From: Phaeodactylibacter luteus
GTDB lineage: Bacteria; Bacteroidota; Bacteroidia; Chitinophagales; Saprospiraceae
Length of the DNA: 47,449 bases
Reading direction: 5' to 3'
Assembly: GCF_007993045.1 (NCBI RefSeq)
Contig: NZ_VOOR01000043.1
Location: 1-47,449 of the forward strand
Both the position numbers and the translations under genes were made by a program. Shown here in pieces: positions 11,303-47,449 of the stretch (position 1 is its first letter; the number at the start of each line of letters is the position of its first letter). The notes under the pieces were generated by a model that saw only the letters and a list, made by a program, of their open reading frames with translations, did no database searches and was not told the DNA's origin.

Positions 11303-11494
11303 GCGCGTGTTGGGATTTTGGTCTTCTAGTCGGAAACTAGCAATTTTTTGATCAAACGAGACCCGAAAACTGGAGTTTAGCCAAGTCCCGCTTTTGATGC
11401 ACAAAAGCGGGAAGGGTTTTCGGGGCGAAGTATAAGCAAAAAAATGTCCCGCTGTCTAGCGGGACAGACCGATTACTAAAGTCCCAACACGCTC
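11303..11494. mobile_element. MITE-like element, 192 bp, TTA target duplication
   Basis: The two ends are inverted repeats matching at 17 of the first 20 positions (left GCGCGTGTTGGGATTTTGGT, right GAGCGTGTTGGGACTTTAGT on the minus strand). They are flanked by direct TTA repeats at 11300-11302 and 11495-11497. No ORF is inside. Two internal hairpins are visible: CCCGCTTTT/AAAAGCGGG and GTCCCGCT/AGCGGGAC. TTA duplications with such ends recall IS5-family (IS1031-like) elements, so this is probably a non-autonomous derivative mobilised in trans; that assignment is inference. A diverged copy lies at 36259-36447 in the opposite orientation. Confidence 0.7.
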
Positions 11495-11570
11495 TTAATC
11501 CGGTCTAGTCGCACTAGGGCTCCGGTGGACACCAACCGTAATGCCGCAAACTTCAGTGCCATGATGATGC

Positions 11571-46538: not shown

Positions 46539-46569
46539 TTGCACATTTATTCGGGATGGTATAAATTTG
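46539..46569 (+). promoter_or_regulatory. Promoter of tRNA-Asn (and of the array behind it)
   Basis: TTG (46539-46541), 20 nt, TAAATTTG (46562-46569): a full match to the Bacteroidota promoter form, 36 bp before the tRNA 5' end. No comparable promoter is seen inside the repeat units, so any nuclease mRNA would come from read-through of this promoter or from an unseen signal. Confidence 0.7.
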
Positions 46570-46605: not shown

Positions 46606-46679
46606 GCCTCAGTAGCTCAGCTGGTTAGAGCGGCGGACTGTTAATCCGTAGGTCCAAGGTTCAAGTCCTTGCTGAGGCG
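46606..46679 (+). tRNA. tRNA-Asn (anticodon GTT)
   Basis: 74 nt with a complete cloverleaf. Acceptor GCCTCAG pairs with CTGAGGC, with discriminator G at 46679. The D arm is GCTC...GAGC with loop AGCTGGTTA. The anticodon stem GCGGA/TCCGT encloses loop CTGTTAA with anticodon GTT at 46640-46642. The T arm is CAAGG/CCTTG with TTCAAGT. CCA is not encoded. It has its own promoter and a strong terminator directly behind. Its 3' part is repeated three times downstream. Confidence 0.96.
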
Positions 46680-46681
46680 CT

Positions 46682-46711
46682 AAGCCCTGATGTCTTCATC
46701 AGGGCTTTTTT
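46682..46711 (+). terminator. Terminator behind tRNA-Asn (array copy 0)
   Basis: AAGCCCTGATG pairs with CATCAGGGCTT over a TCTT loop, followed by a T-run. The same terminator recurs behind each tRNA remnant. Confidence 0.9.
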
Positions 46712-46733
46712 AATACCCCAACACATCAGGGCC

Positions 46734-46760
46734 ATGTTCTGCACCTACATCCTTATATGA
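46734..46760 (+). pseudogene. Nuclease gene stub 1 (9 codons)
   Basis: ATG, six codons almost identical to the start of the GIY-YIG gene at 47032 (MFCTYIL against MFYTYIL), then ATA and TGA. The TGA touches the following tRNA remnant exactly as the stop codon of the full-length gene does, so the stub keeps both ends of the gene and lacks the middle. Confidence 0.75.
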
Positions 46761-46828
46761 GGTTAGAGCGGTCCCGCAGGATTGCGGGATTAATCCGTAG
46801 GTCCAAGGTTCAAGTCCTTGCTGAGGCG
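46761..46828 (+). pseudogene. tRNA-Asn 3' remnant 1 with replaced anticodon arm
   Basis: 68 bp: GGTTAGAGCGG of the D arm, then an 18-nt hairpin (TCCCGCAGGATTGCGGGA) in place of CGGACTG, then TTAATCCGTAGG through the T arm to the discriminator G. The 5' acceptor strand and half of the D arm are missing, so it cannot make a tRNA. Confidence 0.85.
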
Positions 46829-46830
46829 CT

Positions 46831-46860
46831 AAGCCCTGATGTCTTCATCAGGGCTTTTTT
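46831..46860 (+). terminator. Array terminator copy 1
   Basis: Same hairpin and T-run as behind the intact tRNA, exactly 149 bp further on. Confidence 0.88.
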
Positions 46861-46882
46861 AATACCCCAACACATCAGGGAC

Positions 46883-46909
46883 ATGTTCTACACCTACATC
46901 CTTATATGA
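46883..46909 (+). pseudogene. Nuclease gene stub 2 (9 codons)
   Basis: ATG plus MFYTYIL codons identical to the first 21 nt of the full gene at 47032, then ATA TGA. It lies 149 bp after stub 1. The base before the ATG region differs (GGGACATG instead of GGGCCATG). Confidence 0.75.
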
Positions 46910-46977
46910 GGTTAGAGCGGTCCCGCAGGATTGCGGGATTAATCCGTAGGCCCAAGGTTCAAGTCCTTGCTGAGGCG
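46910..46977 (+). pseudogene. tRNA-Asn 3' remnant 2 with replaced anticodon arm
   Basis: The same 68-bp sequence as remnant 1 with one change (T to C in TAGGTCC, giving TAGGCCC). The replaced anticodon arm is identical. Confidence 0.85.
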
Positions 46978-46979
46978 CT

Positions 46980-47009
46980 AAGCCCTGATGTCTTCATCAG
47001 GGCTTTTTT
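46980..47009 (+). terminator. Array terminator copy 2
   Basis: Identical hairpin and T-run, 149 bp after copy 1. It directly precedes the leader of the full-length nuclease gene. Confidence 0.88.
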
Positions 47010-47031
47010 AATACCCCAACACTTCAGGGCC

Positions 47032-47316
47032 ATGTTCTACACCTACATCCTTTATTCCCCCTCGGCCGACAGATATTACATAGGACATACGCAGGACTTG
47101 GCGCTCCGCCTTCGCTTTCACAATGAGCTAGGCGAAGGCACCTATACCTCGAAGCACCGCCCCTGGGAATTGTCGTGCACCGTCGAGCTGCAGAGCCGTT
47201 CCGCGGCATTCCGCCTGGAGCAGTACATCAAGCAGCGCAAAAGCCGTGCTTTCATTGAGCAGTTCATCTCTGTATCGTCATACCGGTCGTACATAGTTGA
47301 AAAAATCTGCCTTTGA
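47032..47316 (+). CDS. GIY-YIG endonuclease of the tRNA-Asn array
   Basis: A 94-residue single-domain GIY-YIG nuclease. The GIY equivalent is YTYILYS (3-9) and the YIG is RYYIGHT (14-20). The catalytic Arg is in LALRLRFHN (23-31) and the metal-binding Glu63 in RLEQYIKQRKSRAF. It matches the UvrC-N/YhbQ-like small nucleases common in Bacteroidota, with no added DNA-binding domain. The start ATG 47032 lies 22 bp after the terminator T-run, and the first 21 nt recur in each neighbouring unit. The TGA at 47314 abuts the next tRNA remnant. Typical roles in the family are DNA repair, homing or structure-specific cutting; the link to a tRNA gene and its duplicated 3' half suggests homing-type behaviour (inference). 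A longer frame beginning at 46906 crosses a tRNA remnant and the terminator and is not the gene. Confidence 0.88.
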   Translation: MFYTYILYSPSADRYYIGHTQDLALRLRFHNELGEGTYTSKHRPWELSCTVELQSRSAAFRLEQYIKQRKSRAFIEQFISVSSYRSYIVEKICL

Positions 47317-47384
47317 GGTTAGAGCGGTCCCGCAGGATTGCGGGATTAATCCGTAGGTCCAAGGTTCAAGTCCTTGCTGAGGCG
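47317..47384 (+). pseudogene. tRNA-Asn 3' remnant 3 with replaced anticodon arm
   Basis: 68 bp identical to remnant 1. It starts directly after the stop codon of the full-length nuclease gene, showing that the remnant marks the 3' boundary of every unit. Confidence 0.85.
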
Positions 47385-47386
47385 CA

Positions 47387-47416
47387 AAGCCCTGATGTCT
47401 TCATCAGGGCTTTTTT
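47387..47416 (+). terminator. Array terminator copy 3
   Basis: The same hairpin and T-run as copies 0-2; the base before it is A instead of T (GCGCAAAGCCC). Confidence 0.88.
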
Positions 47417-47438
47417 AATACCCCAACACATCAGGGCC

Positions 47439-47449
47439 ATGTTCTACAC
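47439..47449 (+). CDS. Start of a further GIY-YIG gene or stub (cut by window end)
   Basis: ATGTTCTACAC, identical to the first 11 nt of the gene at 47032, stands 122 bp after the start of remnant 3, the same spacing as in all other units. Whether it continues as a full gene or a stub lies outside the window. Confidence 0.6.

Follow-up and report, generated by a model that had tools for sequence, protein, structure and literature searches.

In phages T4 and T6, the free-standing GIY-YIG homing endonuclease SegB is encoded within a cluster of tRNA genes (PMC13096335, PMC2988022). As far as the available portions of these reports go, SegB cleaves inside tRNA genes, recombination between the 5' region of a tRNA gene and the 3' end of segB, at a microhomology that they share, probably builds tandem tRNA-segB repeats, and the T6 study leaves open how the enzyme avoids its own genome (PMC13096335). 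Here we describe a locus at the end of a 47,449-base contig of Phaeodactylibacter luteus (NZ_VOOR01000043.1; the complete contig C240 of genome G000, hereafter the window), in which an intact tRNA-Asn(GTT) gene is followed by head-to-tail units, each made of a small GIY-YIG nuclease gene or its stub and a partial tRNA copy in which a hairpin replaces one arm. Judged from its sequence, the unit looks like an undescribed and probably selfish element that multiplies and spreads at tRNA genes of Bacteroidota. Genomes (G), contigs (C), and loci (L) are cited below by our own handles.

In behavior, SegB is the closest known system; its sequence family is different. Both have a GIY-YIG gene adjoining tRNA genes, and a further likeness to the SegB of those reports is that the nuclease genes described here can extend at their 3' end into tRNA-derived sequence. 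Unlike the phage enzyme, the family described here is chromosomal, 80 to 100 residues long, Slx1/UPF0213-like, phylum-wide, and specific, clade by clade, for a tRNA isotype, and the arm-swapped tRNA copies are not described for SegB in the portions available of PMC13096335 and PMC2988022. The protein encoded in the window (P0001) has 94 residues and matched neither a PHROG nor, by tblastn, any phage record (E ≤ 0.001 for both). SegB-family proteins are longer and carry a DNA-binding part. Among the titles and abstract openings listed by searches of the Creative Commons-licensed PMC literature, we found no description of tRNA-linked GIY-YIG cassettes in Bacteroidota.

The array consists of the intact tRNA gene, the only tRNA that ARAGORN calls in the window, and units of 149, 149, and 407 bp (Table 1). 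Between the start of each tRNA remnant and the following ATG lie 122 bp in all three units. These lengths, this distance, and the head-to-tail order behind an intact tRNA-Asn had been proposed in an original prediction made from the letters alone, and we reproduced them from the coordinates. The two shorter units hold gene stubs, which are open reading frames (ORFs) of 8 codons. The three remnant-bearing copies are 98 to 99% identical to the reference, and the stretch with the intact tRNA is 79% identical. The contig terminates within a further unit, and the array comprises at least three complete units. Contig C224 of the same genome ends in a truncated 5' piece of the same nuclease gene fused to unrelated unique sequence, and this end may be the far side of the array.

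Each remnant had been taken for a 68-bp copy of the 3' part of the tRNA, a description that needs amending. It is composed of GGTTAGAGCGG (tRNA nt 18 to 28, 11 nt of the D arm), the 18-nt perfect palindrome TCCCGCAGGATTGCGGGA, and tRNA nt 36 to 75, and the palindrome stands where nt 29 to 35 of the tRNA (CGGACTG), in the anticodon arm, would be. The prediction that the cassette leaves the tRNA intact agrees with the ARAGORN call of a continuous, uninterrupted gene. Group I introns with GIY-YIG genes occur in tRNA anticodon loops and so share both site and enzyme type with this locus, but the tRNA here is not interrupted. The -7 promoter element of Bacteroidota is TAnnTTTG, and a putative copy precedes the tRNA.

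Table 1. Features of the tRNA-Asn-linked array at the end of the window.
Feature	Position	Strand	Basis or detail
TAAATTTG, putative -7 promoter element	46562..46569	+	Pattern scan for TAnnTTTG; 36 bp 5' of the tRNA
Intact tRNA-Asn(GTT)	46606..46680	+	ARAGORN; Rfam tRNA, 73.9 bits
Intrinsic terminator behind the tRNA	46682..46711	+	Predicted; copies at 46831, 46980, and 47387
GIY-YIG gene stub 1, MFCTYILI and stop	46734..46760	+	ORF reading; ATG at 46734
tRNA remnant 1	46761..46829	+	D-arm piece 46761-46771, hairpin 46772-46789, tRNA nt 36-75 at 46790-46829
Foreign hairpin TCCCGCAGGATTGCGGGA in place of tRNA nt 29-35	46772..46789	.	Sequence comparison
Terminator copy 2	46831..46860	+	
GIY-YIG gene stub 2, MFYTYILI and stop	46883..46909	+	ORF reading; ATG at 46883
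tRNA remnant 2	46910..46978	+	Hairpin 46921-46938
Terminator copy 3	46980..47009	+	
Full GIY-YIG nuclease gene, 94 aa, Slx1/UPF0213-like	47032..47316	+	Pfam, profile, and fold searches; ATG at 47032
tRNA remnant 3	47317..47385	+	Hairpin 47328-47345
Terminator copy 4	47387..47416	+	
Start of a further GIY-YIG gene or stub, clipped by the contig end	47439..47449	+	ATG at 47439

The full gene encodes a GIY-YIG nuclease, as predicted, with the Pfam domain spanning residues 1 to 72 (E = 1.8e-16); GIY-YIG and T5orf172 were the only Pfam matches, with no HUH (Y1) transposase among them. Profile searches against solved structures returned UPF0213 (1zg2, 4.9e-13) and Slx1 (7cq2, 2.1e-6), and an AlphaFold2 model (mean pLDDT, a per-residue confidence score, of 94.5) gave the same two families as its best Foldseek matches (6seh, 9.7e-4; 1zg2, 1.2e-3), with I-TevI at rank 31 (E = 2.3). 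By these sequence and fold comparisons the family is placed in the Slx1/UPF0213 branch of GIY-YIG proteins, with which it shares domain, fold, and active site. All 145 sequences have Y16, R26, and E63, 144 of them have Y5, G18, and H30, and the ratio of nonsynonymous to synonymous differences (pN/pS) is 0.18 over 37 array-copy pairs that are not independent, 21 of them from one array (L243). Because the active site is nearly invariant and pN/pS is this low, the sequences indicate purifying selection and an enzyme kept active. Identity of the window enzyme is 49% with its counterpart in congener G003 and 55% with that of L058, compared with 88.7% and 71.8% for pfkB, so the cassette either evolves much faster than its neighbor or has been replaced.

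The replacement of a tRNA arm by a hairpin is a general feature of these loci. An automatic search gave 135 distinct junctions in 80 loci, 115 of which have a perfect stem of at least 6 bp: 80 in the anticodon arm, 28 in the T arm or variable region, and 7 in the D arm. These counts, like the insert and hairpin statistics and the first arm test below, include false rows from L102, L136, L206, L214, and L216. Copies downstream of the tRNA keep its 3' end and have usually lost the 5' acceptor strand, with a few near full length (L058, L124); copies upstream keep the 5' end and have lost the 3' acceptor strand. Two arms are swapped within a single copy at L058, L064, L109, L121, L123, and L124. 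Chance palindromes can be dismissed, as a perfect stem of this length lies within the insert alone in 86 of 132 inserts of at least 12 nt, versus 3.0% of dinucleotide shuffles. The commonest hairpin, TCCCG...CGGGA, occurs in 68 of the 135 junctions. In 61 such hairpins, the next inner pair is complementary in every case and the following one in 51, and the inner pairs use all four pair types (58 different inner sequences at 45 loci). Since complementarity persists across all four pair types, the structure is evidently maintained while its sequence drifts.

The nuclease is widespread among Bacteroidota and lies beside tRNA genes. It was matched in 35 of 59 relatives' genomes, and a profile of 16 relatives gave matches at E ≤ 1e-8 in 135 of the 197 Bacteroidia genomes sampled, representing 89 of 121 genera; from this class-level search, the best 29 loci returned and 18 fetched regions were inspected closely. 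The best 80 of 197 confirmed loci from a scan of GTDB genome contigs are mostly from Bacteroidota, with others from Ignavibacteriota, Chlorobiota, Cloacimonadota, and Neomarinimicrobiota and one record each from Chitinispirillaceae and Candidatus Terrybacteria. The loci used for anatomy and for the tree below are mostly the best-scoring search returns rather than a random draw. A tRNA called by ARAGORN lies on the same strand within 450 bp at 106 of 134 loci (58 of 77, 22 of 29, and 26 of 28 in the three locus sets; four rows were dropped as the same place as another), upstream of the gene in 100 and only downstream in 6. This accords with the expectation that homologues would lie behind tRNA genes. 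Flanks more than 1 kb away hold 3 tRNAs in about 282 kb. At one locus, L080, the nearby tRNA is on the opposite strand. The canonical member of UPF0213, Escherichia coli YhbQ (profile E = 3.1e-9), which served as the one control, has no annotated tRNA in the 16-kb stretch around its gene, and we are aware of no publication that ascribes tRNA copies or hairpin arrays to the UPF0213 and Slx1 families.

Integrative elements and islands at tRNA genes also carry a tRNA part that keeps the target functional and displace the original part. The rescue part and the displaced part would be shared features; the window unit differs in having a single gene of 80 to 100 codons in place of an integrase, an arm-swapping hairpin, tandem repetition, and both 5' and 3' forms. 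Although tRNA 3' duplications are typical of such elements, and one contig from the IMG/VR collection (L283) ends at a locus of this kind, we regard scars of integrase-type elements or phages using tRNA 3' ends as attachment sites as an extremely improbable source of the array: apart from the GIY-YIG gene the window unit contains only small chance ORFs, none of them integrase-like, such scars would account neither for arm-replacing hairpins nor for 5' duplications, and selection acts on the nuclease.

Nuclease lineage predicts which tRNA isotype is associated and which of its arms is altered. In a tree of 117 nuclease proteins (excluding eight same-place loci, loci without an assigned tRNA, and proteins shorter than 60 residues), isotype changes 38 times, versus a mean of 83.7 for shuffled labels with none of 200 shuffles as low, although near relatives also make labels cluster. 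Labels at L023, L126, L129, L213, and L235 had been corrected by hand beforehand; after a later correction at L204 (labeled Phe, really Ala), the count is 37 versus 83.5. Five Asp rows group Cloacimonadota with Ignavibacteriota, and a Met pair includes the Terrybacteria record. Whether the hairpin lies in the T region only, scored as yes or no, changes 9 times over 78 rows, versus 17.1 under free shuffles and 14.4 under shuffles within isotype (0 of 200 as low for each). With the false rows removed and stems of at least 6 bp required, the figures are 7 changes over 73 rows versus 13.8 and 10.7 (0 of 500). The pfkB-linked tRNA-Asn provides a direct contrast: the window array has anticodon-arm hairpins, whereas in G245, a member of a different family, the enzyme belongs to the T clade and the hairpins lie between tRNA nt 45 and 51 (its pfkB was recognized by reading the start of the gene). 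That the arm follows the nuclease tree even within an isotype, as at this site, is the strongest hint that the enzyme acts where the hairpin sits.

The same tracking bears on a structure-driven account, in which the Slx1-like enzyme would act on hairpin or cruciform DNA formed by the swapped hairpin or by tRNA arms, and the breaks would drive expansion and contraction of the arrays, possibly tuning tRNA or nuclease dosage, without homing. The nearness of the family to Slx1/UPF0213 in sequence and fold, the covarying stems, and the tandem arrays (ten copies in G150, five in G274) all suit it. We nonetheless find it unlikely, in that the tracking of isotype and arm calls for tRNA recognition beyond a common hairpin, repair of a hairpin break from the intact tRNA should erase the hairpin, and loci with a single gene are common.

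Occupancy of a given site varies among close relatives, as expected of a free-standing homing endonuclease. At the pfkB/tRNA-Asn site, congener G002 has neither remnant nor gene; G004 has an upstream remnant, with the contig ending behind the tRNA; G001 combines two upstream remnants with a downstream gene stub of about 56 bp; and G003 has a full unit together with the stub and flank seen in G001. In G005 the contig ends before the tRNA, and a hairpin remnant opens another contig. Downstream flanks differ among the window genome, G002, and the pair G001/G003. In a Flavobacterium-like genus, trxB lies upstream of 14 of 30 tRNA-Pro loci by a motif-based count. Three of these 14 have the gene: one copy at L253, five full genes with five remnants, in a genome of one contig, at L266/L302, and a gene clipped by the contig end at L280. 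A hairpin remnant without the gene is clear at L278 and L282 and doubtful at L265 (all read by eye), L260 has only a short 3' match, and seven loci have nothing. Among seven genomes of the G245 genus, five matched. Nuclease units are present in one of these; two others carry hairpin units but gave no nuclease match in the stretch examined (in G179, a contig end follows); and two look empty, one of which lacks the pfkB context. G150, an assembly of 20 contigs, carries ten genes at 457-bp spacing.

The original prediction had suggested comparing strains for unit number and had proposed that the array grows and shrinks by recombination between the repeated tRNA parts. Empty, remnant-only, single-unit, and array states indeed occur within genera, and the states at the pfkB/Asn and trxB/Pro sites fit such recombination. 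The arrangement as such is unlikely to be an assembly artefact, because the single-contig genome G274 contains an array, spaced at 350 bp, of five full genes and as many remnants; arrays also occur in G150 and G233, which have few contigs. Overall, the tRNA association and the variation in copy number have stood, and the prediction had overlooked the arm-swapping hairpin, the arrays upstream (5') of tRNAs, the short arrays without a nuclease, and the link between clade, isotype, and arm.

From the observed anatomy, tRNA association, isotype and arm tracking, array variation, and purifying selection, we infer a course for cleavage, transfer, and the origin of the hairpin. We hold it somewhat more probable than its opposite that the unit is a minimal homing-type cassette specialized on tRNA genes. 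Such a cassette would restore its target and leave the displaced half labeled by a hairpin where the cut is presumed to fall. It would comprise one GIY-YIG gene of 80 to 100 residues and pieces of the target tRNA gene. Let A-x-B denote the target, where x lies in one of three arms (anticodon, T, or D). The common downstream form would then read A-x-B', terminator, nuclease gene, (A')-hairpin-B, terminator. The fresh half B' borne by the cassette would keep the tRNA functional, and the original half B would end up displaced to the far side of the nuclease gene, its arm x replaced by the hairpin; in the upstream form, its mirror, A would be kept and B displaced. The nuclease would cut the tRNA gene of a cassette-free cell at x, and the break would be repaired from a cassette-bearing copy through tRNA homology on either side. 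A hairpin at x would render the displaced copy both resistant and nonfunctional. Through the repeated tRNA parts, units could then multiply, contract, and shed the nuclease gene, which would yield tandem arrays as well as short arrays without it.

Units without a nuclease gene exist in the window genome itself, as hairpin-bearing copies at tRNA-Gly and tRNA-Leu, where we found no nuclease gene. Upstream of one tRNA-Gly(GCC) are four tandem 52-bp 5' copies in which a hairpin replaces the D loop (L042 1430-1950; G000:C2 near 111860), a second tRNA-Gly(GCC) copy has one further hairpin-bearing unit upstream, and downstream of tRNA-Leu(TAG) is a 3' copy whose T arm contains a hairpin (L043 1490-1560; G000:C212 near 42038). 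A scan of up to 700 bp around 29 tRNAs plus the Leu locus, in a genome with 35 tRNA matches, found hairpin-bearing copies only at the Asn, Gly, and Leu loci; it would miss copies matching over fewer than 10 nt. The exact TCCCGCAGGATTGCGGGA hairpin occurs three times in the genome, always within the window array, and its two one-mismatch versions both lie inside partial tRNA copies adjoining intact tRNAs. In another genome, six tandem, hairpin-bearing 5' copies of about 81 bp lie upstream of tRNA-His (L175; G058:C8 near 73268-73692), with no nuclease seen within the stretch inspected.

Hairpin arrays of this kind, without a nuclease, speak against a conflict at the RNA level, in which the protein would attack the tRNA and the arm-swapped copies, expressed from the tRNA promoter, would serve as RNA antitoxins or decoys, as in type III toxin-antitoxin systems. 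The arrangement of repeats and gene is similar to that of type III systems; a terminator separates repeats from gene, the family is isotype-specific and under strong purifying selection, and the remnants retain tRNA-like parts. The nearest solved relatives are, however, DNA nucleases, and the displaced copies usually lack one acceptor strand, so we judge this account very unlikely.

Palindromes near a single-domain nuclease gene, together with nuclease-free copies, also recall REP/RAYT systems, in which mobile palindromes are associated with an HUH (Y1) transposase. Here the enzyme is GIY-YIG rather than HUH, and the palindrome is built into a tRNA copy in place of an arm rather than being free-standing. 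Hairpins exclusive to nuclease/tRNA loci were considered and ruled out by TCCCG hairpins elsewhere, including those in a dispersed repeat resembling a miniature inverted-repeat transposable element (MITE). This repeat has inverted ends GAGCGTGTTGGGA...TCCCAACACGCTC (window, about 11303-11497; L044-L057) and itself bears TCCCGC...GCGGGA hairpins; some of its copies have an additional inserted hairpin and some do not. The window genome has 76 TCCCGCN2-12GCGGGA sites versus 14 for the reversed pattern, and TCCCG palindromes exceed the control in 10 of 12 genomes tested.

Terminators provide a separate line of evidence. In 24 of 73 downstream-type loci, the intact tRNA and the last remnant are followed by different terminators, by an alignment cut-off of our own choosing. 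At L220, L242, and L246, a single terminator recurs in all inner units, with a different one behind the last remnant alone, as expected if units were inserted before the native end of the tRNA. In Algoriphagus, the remnant terminator of L073 is similar to the terminator that follows the intact tRNA-Thr of L128, a single suggestive pair, and at L068 the acceptor strand of the displaced half differs from that of the intact tRNA; plain tandem duplication does not give these patterns. Proof of exact insertion from a native terminator was sought, and L073/L128 was the only suggestive case, with terminators too variable in the G218 and G245 genera. A recoded, cut-resistant rescue tRNA is unsupported, the intact and displaced halves being mostly identical outside the swapped arm, and the difference of the window T stem from its congeners is possibly vertical, because the more distant L109 and L058 share the window form.

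These data also bear on a passive coincidence of tandem tRNA duplication, mobile palindromes landing in whichever copy is dispensable, and a UPF0213 repair gene of housekeeping function that the repeat happened to capture. The MITE-like repeat with its TCCCG palindromes, their excess in most genomes tested, and terminators that are alike in the other 49 of 73 loci are what it would lead one to expect. It sits poorly with a tRNA association at 106 of 134 loci in many families and several phyla, with an arm that follows the nuclease clade, with the 24 loci of differing terminators, and with the YhbQ control, and we consider such a coincidence quite unlikely.

Several observations weigh against the homing-type cassette. 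The most serious concerns self-protection: the anticodon, T, and D sequences lost from or shared by the displaced copy are all still present in the adjoining intact tRNA, and an enzyme cutting there would also attack its own chromosome. The nearest solved relatives are Slx1 and UPF0213, not I-TevI, and the enzyme lacks an added DNA-recognition domain. No tRNA was called at 28 of the 134 loci, 18 of which have less than 450 bp of upstream sequence; many of the 28 have a T-arm, D-arm, or hairpin motif next to the gene. TCCCG hairpins are also present at places without tRNAs, even in a genome without a family match at the cut-off used, and the alike terminators are what simple tandem duplication would also give. 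No genome pair with both flanks preserved proves exact insertion, and the tree is weakly resolved, with 7 of 114 inner branches starred. Relatives in viral contigs are few (four matches, one at a contig end and three weak), and none was found in plasmid or phage records with P0001 as the sole query, which reaches close relatives only. Carriage by phages or plasmids was set aside on these same counts.

There is a real chance that this variant of homing-type elements forms a class of its own. More specifically, we put forward, tentatively and with the balance tilting against it, a one-gene mobile element of about 400 bp, of a new class at tRNA genes, that carries its own rescue part and turns the attacked arm into a standard hairpin, with the nuclease lineage dictating isotype and arm and with nuclease-free derivatives of 50 to 130 bp in tandem arrays: a natural cleave-and-rescue system. 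If the homing-type cassette is real, about two-thirds of Bacteroidia genomes (135 of 197 with a homologue) would carry an unnoticed element that attacks and repairs essential tRNA genes. Such an element would be the bacterial equivalent, in compact form, of engineered cleave-and-rescue drives, and tRNA-specific nucleases could be sourced from it. Assembly breaks at tRNA genes, and the odd extra tRNAs that tRNA finders report there, would also become easier to explain. The tracking of isotype and arm makes target reading by a small GIY-YIG domain directly testable over many natural enzymes.

Some further observations concern single loci. PADLOC gave no match. The putative viral contig L283 terminates, within positions 1-420, at a nuclease-remnant unit and is perhaps a provirus edge at a tRNA gene. 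At L018, L019, and L014 the nuclease ORF continues into the remnant, so that tRNA sequence and hairpin supply the codons for its final residues. At L109 (3001-3272), the Phaeodactylibacter nuclease gene matches in two pieces, apparently in two frames, at the pfkB/tRNA-Asn site, and this gene is apparently a decaying copy. ARAGORN calls some arm-swapped copies as tRNAs of other or unknown isotype (L023 1733-1814, L126 3224-3299, L129 3216-3311, L136 3227-3303, and L204), and at L086 its only call is an arm-swapped copy; such copies are a likely source of wrong tRNA annotation.

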